64,000 bases of DNA from Methylomarinum vadi. GTDB taxonomy: Bacteria; Pseudomonadota; Gammaproteobacteria; Methylococcales; Methylomonadaceae. Shown here in pieces: positions 22,035 to 27,136 of this stretch. How positions within the stretch are numbered: the first letter of the stretch is position 1; every line of letters begins with the position of its first letter. Made by a program: the position numbers and the translations under genes. The notes under the pieces were generated by a model that saw only the letters and a program-made list of their open reading frames with translations, made no database searches and had not been told where the DNA came from. Where the stretch lies: assembly GCF_000733935.1 (NCBI RefSeq), contig NZ_JPON01000001.1, positions 1,550,001 to 1,614,000 on the forward strand. Direction: 5' to 3'.

Positions 22035-22592
22035 TCAATCATATTGCCCGGCTTCCGGTATTTCGATGCTGGAGACGAATTCATCCCCCCAGCCTTCAGG
22101 ATAACGACCCTCCCGGACAAAGCGATGAAATGAGGAATAAGGCCAATCGGAAACACGAGCAGCATGTCCATGCTTGACCGGGTTGAAATGAAGATAATCA
22201 AGGTGACGGTGCAAATCCTCTTCGTCGCGAATTTGATGTTCCCAGAAACGTCGCTGCCAAAGCGTGCTTTCTCGGCGTTTAATTTTGGAAGCGATCATCC
22301 AGTCGCTGCGGTGATACCGTAATTGCAGCCTTTTACTGACATAACGTTTTATTAGCGCCCAGCGTTTGGAAAAATCGTCATCCTGCTCCGGCAAAGTCCA
22401 AATGCAGTGGAGATGATCTGGCAACAAAACCCACCCTTCTATCGTGAAAGGATGCTCAACCCGAATGCTCCGGATCCCTTCGCGCAATGAGGTTCTAACG
22501 TCCTCGTTACATAAAATAGGCCGGCGATGGAGAGTGACGACGGTAAAGAAATAAGTCGCGCCTGGGACAGTCACACGCCGGTAGTTTGACAT
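22035..22592 (-). CDS. rayT: REP-associated tyrosine transposase (RAYT, TnpA_REP)
   Basis: A 185-residue Y1 HUH transposase-like protein. The HUH histidines lie in LLPDHLHCIWTLP near residue 60. A Lys/Arg-rich helix (ALIKRYVSKRL) and the C-terminal signature HLDYLHFNPVKHG, which carries the likely catalytic Tyr, are also present. RAYTs bind, cleave and probably spread REP/BIME palindromes as single-copy domesticated genes. It is flanked by cognate-looking REPs at 21949 and 22682. Length and motifs are complete, so it is probably active. Confidence 0.93.
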   Translation of the reverse strand: MSNYRRVTVPGATYFFTVVTLHRRPILCNEDVRTSLREGIRSIRVEHPFTIEGWVLLPDHLHCIWTLPEQDDDFSKRWALIKRYVSKRLQLRYHRSDWMIASKIKRRESTLWQRRFWEHQIRDEEDLHRHLDYLHFNPVKHGHAARVSDWPYSSFHRFVREGRYPEGWGDEFVSSIEIPEAGQYD

Positions 22593-25505: not shown

Positions 25506-25554
25506 CAGACCTATAGATATTTATCTTGCTTATACGGTTGTTAACAAGGACGGC

Positions 25555-25641
25555 TTATACACAAAAGCTGTGGATAACTCTGTGGCTAGATTGTCGAAAT
25601 GCAGGCTAACTGTCCATCAGCATTGCATTTTTGTTAAATTG
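25555..25641 (+). repeat. 87-bp DnaA-box repeat, unit A
   Basis: First of three 87-bp repeats (others at 26466-26552 and 26843-26929). It contains two perfect DnaA boxes, TTATACACA at 25555-25563 and the complement-strand TGTGGATAA at 25569-25577, then a shared GATTGTC block, and ends with the shared TTTTTGTTAAATTG. AT-rich sequence follows. Confidence 0.9.
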
Positions 25642-25715
25642 ATCAAATATTGGTCAAAGACAGATAATCTAACGTATTCAACAACATAAAAAAGGCAATG
25701 GGAAATTTTATGCAA

Positions 25716-26292
25716 CTAAACAACCACCCGCTCAAGCGGGTGGGTTCCAATAACGGACTGAAAGTCCGGATACGCGTCGACTAAACGACGCGTCTTAGTC
25801 GGGCTCCATCTTGAAATTATCGTTTGGATTAGGTTCAAAGTGATGCTCCAAATATTGCTTTATCATCTCATCAGTCATTTGCCCCACTGTGGCGCAAAAA
25901 TAACCGCGGGCTCAAAAATGTCGACCCCAATATCGCTTTTTCAAGTGCGGGAACTCTTCGAACAGATAGCTCGAAGTTCGTCCCTTGATTCGCCTCATGA
26001 TTTCGCTTGGGGCCATAGTCGGCGGCGCACTCACCAAAATGTGCACATGATCTTTGCTCACGACACCTTTGATAATCCGTATCTCAAAGGCTTCGCATGT
26101 CTGCCGCACCAAGTCTCTCACTCGTTCGGCTATTTCATCCTTCAGCACTTTATAACGATACTTCGTAACCCAAACAAAATGATACTCAATTTGGTAAACC
26201 GTATGGCTGCCGTATCTATAGTCCATCGCCACCTCCTTGGGCAAATTATCGCAGCTAAAGCTGACCGGCTAAAGCCGGTGGTTTAAACCTTA
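25716..26292 (-). mobile_element. IS200/IS605-family insertion sequence (approximate ends)
   Basis: A single-gene element with a Y1 transposase frame and hairpins rather than inverted repeats at its ends: CCACCCGCT/AGCGGGTGG at 25724-25743 and ACCGGCT/AGCCGGT at 26264-26279. Two more small hairpins follow the left one. Ends are estimated, not mapped. It sits between DnaA-box units; subtracting roughly 580 bp restores the spacing seen in the other units. The transposase has a nonsense codon. Confidence 0.85.
25795..26226 (-). pseudogene. tnpA: IS200/IS605 TnpA transposase with in-frame stop
   Basis: From the ATG at 26226 (GGAGG 5 bases upstream) the frame encodes MDYRYGSHTVYQIEYHFVWV and the HUH motif in KDHVHILVSAPP, reaching YWGRHF. 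A TGA follows at 25912-25914, where family members have Trp. Reading on in the same frame gives ARGYFCATVGQ...MIKQYLEHHFEPNP and a natural stop at 25795. The lost segment contains the catalytic Tyr (IKQYLEHH). A single TGG-to-TGA change explains it, so the element cannot move itself unless the stop is read through. Confidence 0.88.
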
Positions 26293-26465
26293 TGATGGAT
26301 AATTAAGGAGCGCTCGCTTGGATATTCTTAGCTGAAAAATTTATGTGCATAAGACGAGATCCAGCCGATTCATTGTCACTGCCTGGCGAGCGACTGAACT
26401 TAACGCCTGATAATTCATTGATTCAGCCAGTCCACTTAGTCGTCACCGGAAAGTTAAGCACCACT

Positions 26466-26552
26466 TTACCCACAATTCCTGTGGATAACTTTGTGGACAG
26501 ATTGTCGAAACGTGTGCTAACTAACCATAAATATTACATTTTTGTTAAATTG
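26466..26552 (+). repeat. 87-bp DnaA-box repeat, unit B
   Basis: Second 87-bp unit: TTACCCACA (one mismatch) at 26466-26474, perfect TGTGGATAA at 26480-26488, the GATTGTCGAAA block and the terminal TTTTTGTTAAATTG. The similarity to unit C continues to 26677, where a perfect TGTGCATAA box lies. Confidence 0.9.
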
Positions 26553-26842
26553 GCCATTGTTTACACAATAAACAAAATAACATAAAAATCAATAAGATAA
26601 TAAGTTATATCGCCAGATTCAAACAAATTCCTTCGCATTAAGGCAACTGTATCGACTTCAAACCTTTCTGTGCATAAGAGCTTTATTCCACATTTTTCGC
26701 GGCCGGCCTTTCACATATTTTTTTGGCCATTCGAGAAAATAACACTGCCCGATGAAAAAAAGAAATCAACATTTATCGGCACAAATAAAAGTGATTTATG
26801 AACAACCTGGCTAAGTATTGATCGATATTGGAAAATTTCGCT

Positions 26843-26929
26843 TTACCCACAAAAGCTGTGGATAACTCTGTGGATAGATTGTCTAAATACGTCGCAACGT
26901 CCCATAACTGTTACATTTTTGTTAAATTG
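26843..26929 (+). repeat. 87-bp DnaA-box repeat, unit C
   Basis: Third 87-bp unit: TTACCCACA at 26843-26851, perfect TGTGGATAA at 26857-26865, and a second near-box TGTGGATAG at 26869-26877. It ends with the same TTTTTGTTAAATTG. The similarity to unit B continues to 27054. Confidence 0.9.
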
Positions 26930-27136
26930 ACTATTTTTTAACCAGCCAACAAAAATTATTTCTTTCAATGACTTATAAAAGTCAACAATAATTTTTACGA
27001 GACGTAAACGCTATGCCAAGAAATCATATCGACTGAAAACCTTTCTGTGTATTAATATGCATTGCCTATTCGATTGCTAACCCACGCCATTGCAAAAACT
27101 AGCAGCCGAAACATGCAGTCGCATACTAAATGCGAT

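Follow-up and report, generated by a model that had tools for sequence, protein, structure and literature searches.

The question and the DnaA-box cluster

What does a dense cluster of DnaA boxes do when no dnaA gene lies nearby? The cluster considered here is in a 64-kb stretch of the Methylomarinum vadi chromosome (hereafter the window; bases 1,550,001–1,614,000 of the single 4,335,162-bp contig), and an earlier note on this DNA had proposed that it might be an oriC moved away from its usual genes or a site that titrates DnaA; a DnaA-reactivating sequence (DARS) is a further candidate. The six perfect TTATNCACA boxes listed in the note are all in place (25555, 25569, 26344, 26480, 26669 and 26857), and the whole window holds seven. 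The excess over chance claimed for them is borne out, as 100 dinucleotide shuffles of the window gave a mean of 1.52 boxes (sd 1.28, largest 6), and none of the 100 reached seven. The three 87-bp repeats said to carry the boxes do exist, but they are not exact, since they are only 60–78% alike: identity to copy 2 over 114 bp is 69% for copy 1 and 78% for copy 3, and the three pairwise identities over the first 230 alignment columns are 60%, 62% and 67%. The reported extension of two repeats to ~212 bp is consistent with a fourth DnaA box 198 bp from the start of the core.

The units share a common element of ~210 bp. Its core has three boxes, with box II and box III oriented against box I; a Fis consensus follows at +81 and, in two of the three units, an IHF-like site at +115/116. 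A fourth box lies at +198 and occurs in all three units once an insertion sequence is removed. The core of unit 1 (25555..25589, +) comprises box I at 25555-25563 (+), box II at 25569-25577 (–) and a degenerate box III at 25581-25589 (–); it is followed by an exact, unstranded Fis consensus at +81 (25641..25655) and an exact fourth box at 26344..26352 (–), which is at +198 from the core with the insertion left out, and an IHF consensus within one mismatch was not found in this unit. Unit 2 has its core at 26466..26500 (+; box I at 26466-26474 with one mismatch, box II at 26480-26488, box III at 26492-26500), an exact, unstranded Fis consensus at +81 (26552..26566), an IHF-like site with one mismatch at +116 (26587..26599, +), and an exact fourth box at +198 (26669..26677, –). 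The same order is seen in unit 3, with a core at 26843..26877 (+; box I at 26843-26851 and box III at 26869-26877 with one mismatch each, box II at 26857-26865), an exact, unstranded Fis consensus at +81 (26929..26943), an IHF-like site with one mismatch at +115 (26963..26975, +), and a fourth box with one mismatch at +198 (27046..27054, –).

The description of the region as non-coding fails in part, for unit 1 contains, and is split by, an IS200/IS605 insertion of ~586 bp (25715..26301, –; ends placed where other copies stop matching, with an error of one or two bases), which carries a 110-aa transposase ORF (25912-26244, –). This element has 45 near-identical copies and one fragment in the genome (including contig 143335-143920), and two of the 45 copies sit 20–30 bp downstream of two DARS-like elements and share the same orientation relative to them. 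A gene for a REP-associated tyrosine transposase (22035-22592, –; 197.2 bits against a cut-off of 80) lies ~3 kb to the left of the cluster. One protein encoded in the neighbourhood shows 64% identity to Methylomonas lenta.

Position on the chromosome

An oriC is expected at the GC-skew switch and usually near dnaA. As the earlier note had it, dnaA is absent from the window; the gene is at 2,645,353 on the same contig, with three DnaA boxes just upstream (2,644,770-2,644,902). GC skew, computed on 35 sampled 20-kb stretches of the contig, is positive at 0–0.56 Mb, negative at 0.58–2.44 Mb, slightly positive at 2.44–2.52 Mb, negative at 2.52–2.64 Mb and positive from 2.64 Mb, the switch being imperfectly sharp because of the slightly positive patch that precedes the last negative stretch. 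Skew over the window is –0.077, and its 2-kb values are all negative except two (+0.009 and +0.003). The cluster thus lies neither at the skew switch nor near dnaA; it is 1.07 Mb from the gene, about halfway along a replichore of ~2.07 Mb if the change of skew sign close to 0.57 Mb marks the terminus. We therefore rejected the reading as a relocated oriC, since dnaA with its three boxes and the sampled skew switch both lie at ~2.64 Mb, about a megabase away.

Two further observations concern this part of the chromosome. Inverted DnaA-box pairs with a start-to-start distance of 34 bp match between 2644770-2644812, upstream of dnaA, and 2646376-2646418, ~1.6 kb on. The slightly positive patch inside the negative replichore (contig 2440001-2520000) is possibly a small inversion, and contains one DARS-like element at 2,473,674.

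Conservation of the core and of the layout

The core pattern can be written CACA-N5-TGTGGATAA-NTN-TGTG, with one box facing two others. Counted in its exact form, which overlooks diverged cores (both E. coli DARS included) and may count near-palindromic cores twice, once per direction, it has ten matches in the M. vadi genome, and occurs in 52 of the 61 genomes of a set of relatives and in 238 of 377 genomes sampled from the class. The reversed control pattern had no match in any of the 61 genomes or across the class sample of 377. The M. vadi count is the highest in both sets, and outside the order the maximum is four per genome. Cores lie mostly between genes (7 of 112 are inside an ORF of at least 100 aa), and sets of two to four cores, 200–430 bp apart, recur in other genera. 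One relative (C176:5627-6617 of G012) carries four DARS-like cores at intervals of 322 bp; they are near-palindromic, and all but one match in both directions. A recent mobile repeat was considered and rejected, as the exact core is found in 33 of the 39 genera of the relatives set and holds the same position relative to genes in a relative of the same genus (G001).

Sequence around the core is also constrained. Across 104 core sites with no more than one mismatch, taken from M. vadi and its relatives, conservation at fixed spacing extends to about +127. An exact Fis consensus is found at +81 in 34 of these sites, with no other Fis position between +60 and +129 above the reporting limit; an exact IHF consensus at +115 or +116 is found in 40, and no other IHF position between –200 and +279 reached six. 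Between +150 and +250 there are 47 boxes oriented like II and III, of which 28 fall at +197 to +200; between +50 and +150 there are none. Outside the order, 40 sites were fetched and 38 were usable (two stretches were too short); in nine of the 38 the Fis consensus is exact at +81, compared with two at the next best position, and in seven an IHF consensus lies between +113 and +116. The layout thus extends beyond the order, in a looser form.

A profile, R1, was made from 76 of 93 sites in relatives (17 dropped) and includes no M. vadi site. With E ≤0.01 it has a match in every one of the 61 genomes, in one case only at 0.006, and the number of matches reaches 13 in M. vadi, 15 in G002, and 14 each in G027 and G033. 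On the M. vadi loci R1 places at least 11 elements (47.7–82.3 bits) at nine loci. Three are in the window, at 25554-25693 (unit 1, 74.7 bits), 26465-26607 (unit 2, 79.4 bits) and 26842-26981 (unit 3, 81.2 bits). A separate scan for Fis and IHF sites began from 13 core sites in M. vadi, of which two were left out: one was a near-palindromic core matched in reverse, the other a match with two mismatches lying within a 676-aa ORF. Among the 11 elements, the Fis consensus is exact at +81 in nine, and eight carry an IHF site with no more than one mismatch between +114 and +117.

Comparison with E. coli control sites

DARS have been worked out mainly in E. coli, where at least two are known. The three-box spacing is found in E. 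coli DARS1, just after bioD, with two mismatches to the core pattern, and in DARS2, between rppH and ygdT, with three. When R1 was run over four E. coli stretches (111 kb), DARS1 came first (32.0 bits) and DARS2 second (20.1 bits), followed by partial matches to a stretch that we take to carry datA (15.1 bits over 52 positions) and to oriC (14.8 bits); the DARS2 match is modest, and only slightly above the last two. The likeness to DARS thus goes beyond that to other DnaA-box clusters, modestly so for DARS2.

Published descriptions, in the portions available, place DARS1 at 0.81 Mb and DARS2 at 2.97 Mb on the E. coli map, give the DARS core a set spacing with box I opposite to boxes II and III, and present the head-to-head boxes I and II as a prominent DARS feature (PMC5742627). 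Conservation of DARS2 cores in related gamma-proteobacteria has already been reported (PMC4245941), and a DARS3 is called speculated (PMC4585315). The M. vadi units have the three boxes, the inverted box I and the spacing of both E. coli elements. DARS1, which has the same core, aligns with R1 over 143 positions without gaps; it differs in having no Fis or IHF consensus at the levels scanned, and is said to need no additional factors for its activity (PMC5742627).

DARS2 resembles the M. vadi units in the spacing and orientation of its core, in having Fis and IHF sites downstream (our scan; PMC4245941, in part), and in its location between oriC and the terminus (PMC5742627, in part), which is also where the intergenic cores of the window lie. 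R1 matches it over 143 model positions and 131 bases, and the DARS2 IHF site falls on that of the model, with a core-to-IHF distance 12 bases shorter in E. coli. In our scan of the DARS2 stretch, IHF-like sites came out at +88 and +104, with a Fis consensus farther out, at +140; the two IHF-like sites after the core are 3 bp apart, in agreement with the available text of PMC4245941. The E. coli order is therefore core, IHF, Fis, whereas that of M. vadi is core, Fis, IHF, with the Fis site exact in all three units and the IHF site within one mismatch in two. A further difference is that DARS2 is described as a single copy in a 455-bp region (PMC5742627), compared with three tandem units in M. 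vadi, one of them split by an insertion sequence. Judged by architecture and profile, the M. vadi element is of the DARS kind.

Origin of the tandem array

The same-genus relative G001 has one full element immediately ahead of a collinear run of nine window genes, which begins with an acetyltransferase and a hydrolase, and R1 found no second element in this 85%-complete assembly. This single element before the same genes suggests that the tandem array in M. vadi may have arisen by local amplification. Another member of the genus, G002, has an element beside relatives of the left-side genes and another near relatives of the right-side ones, ~0.9 Mb apart, and this split therefore points to a rearrangement break at or near the cluster. 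Among 20 stretches from relatives, clear relatives of window genes were found only in those of G002, with weak ones in G004; a single shared locus for the tandem arrays of other genera is accordingly unsupported. Nor was a constant distance from dnaA seen when the arrays of G028, G031 and G032 were compared by hand. The open-access literature searched contained no paper joining DARS2 with Methylomonas or Methylococcales with the DnaA box, and tandem arrangement was not mentioned in that on DARS homologues.

Proposed function and alternatives

We consider it probable that the three window units form a tandem array of DARS-type DnaA-reactivating sequences, at which DnaA would exchange ADP for ATP. 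By analogy with E. coli, ADP-DnaA would bind the three-box core such that the molecule on box I faces the one on box II; the complex would then be shaped by Fis and IHF at their downstream sites, leading to release of ADP, and the empty DnaA would take up ATP and become able to start replication at the distant oriC. DnaA, Fis and IHF would presumably bind at the predicted sites, the units would support nucleotide exchange on DnaA, and the three copies may act beyond what one would do. Among the proteins encoded by the genome are Hda (266.9 bits; cut-off 194.8) and both IHF subunits (ihfA, 155.5 bits, cut-off 120.25; ihfB, 157.5 bits, cut-off 115), together with an HU-like protein that scores below the cut-off of its model and a Fis homologue that adjoins dusB, is 48% identical to E. 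coli Fis and reaches 97 bits where the model cut-off is 99. Several observations run against the DARS reading: unit 1 is split and lacks an IHF site at the one-mismatch level, the Fis homologue falls below its cut-off, the match to DARS2 is modest, the site order is unlike that of DARS2, and the distance from dnaA varies among relatives.

The main rival is that the boxes simply soak up DnaA, with the fixed layout reflecting cooperative binding, as many consensus boxes within 1.5 kb might indicate. A 2025 E. coli paper, in the part available, attributes a large fraction of titration power to DARS1, DARS2 and datA (PMC12371093), so one site could both titrate and reactivate, and the two activities are not mutually exclusive. 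However, plain titration requires no inverted box I beside box II and no set spacing of Fis and IHF sites, and the same text stresses box enrichment near oriC, whereas this cluster is ~1.07 Mb from dnaA; we regard titration alone as unlikely. The titrating site of the earlier note was right in kind, as a non-origin site of DnaA control, while the architecture favours DARS over plain titration.

DnaA, Fis and IHF could alternatively regulate adjacent genes, for which the largely intergenic placement of cores might speak; yet flanking genes vary among most loci, few loci of relatives share relatives of the window genes, and transcription control seems highly unlikely. The slender chance that the cluster is a datA-type site, promoting ATP hydrolysis on DnaA, has in its favour that datA also combines DnaA boxes with an IHF site, but the source for this describes the head-to-head boxes I and II as a DARS feature (PMC5742627, in part). 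The R1 match to the assumed datA stretch is moreover weaker than those to both DARS, and partial. Most improbable is an origin displaced from dnaA: a DnaA-box cluster in AT-rich DNA would suit it, but the skew switch is found with dnaA, and the window falls within the part of negative skew.

Implications for the control of initiation

What is new here is a profile that recurs across the order (core, Fis site, IHF site and fourth box), with up to 15 matches per genome and with tandem arrays. Given at least 11 elements and one triple locus in M. vadi, we tentatively raise the possibility, which we hold to be rather less than even, that this lineage controls initiation by dispersed, locally amplified DARS. 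If so, DnaA reactivation would scale with DARS copy number, and its timing would be tied to the duplication of the mid-replichore array. R1 offers a profile usable for locating DARS elsewhere, and it becomes directly testable how the timing of initiation depends on the number of DARS, on their place and on their arrangement in tandem.
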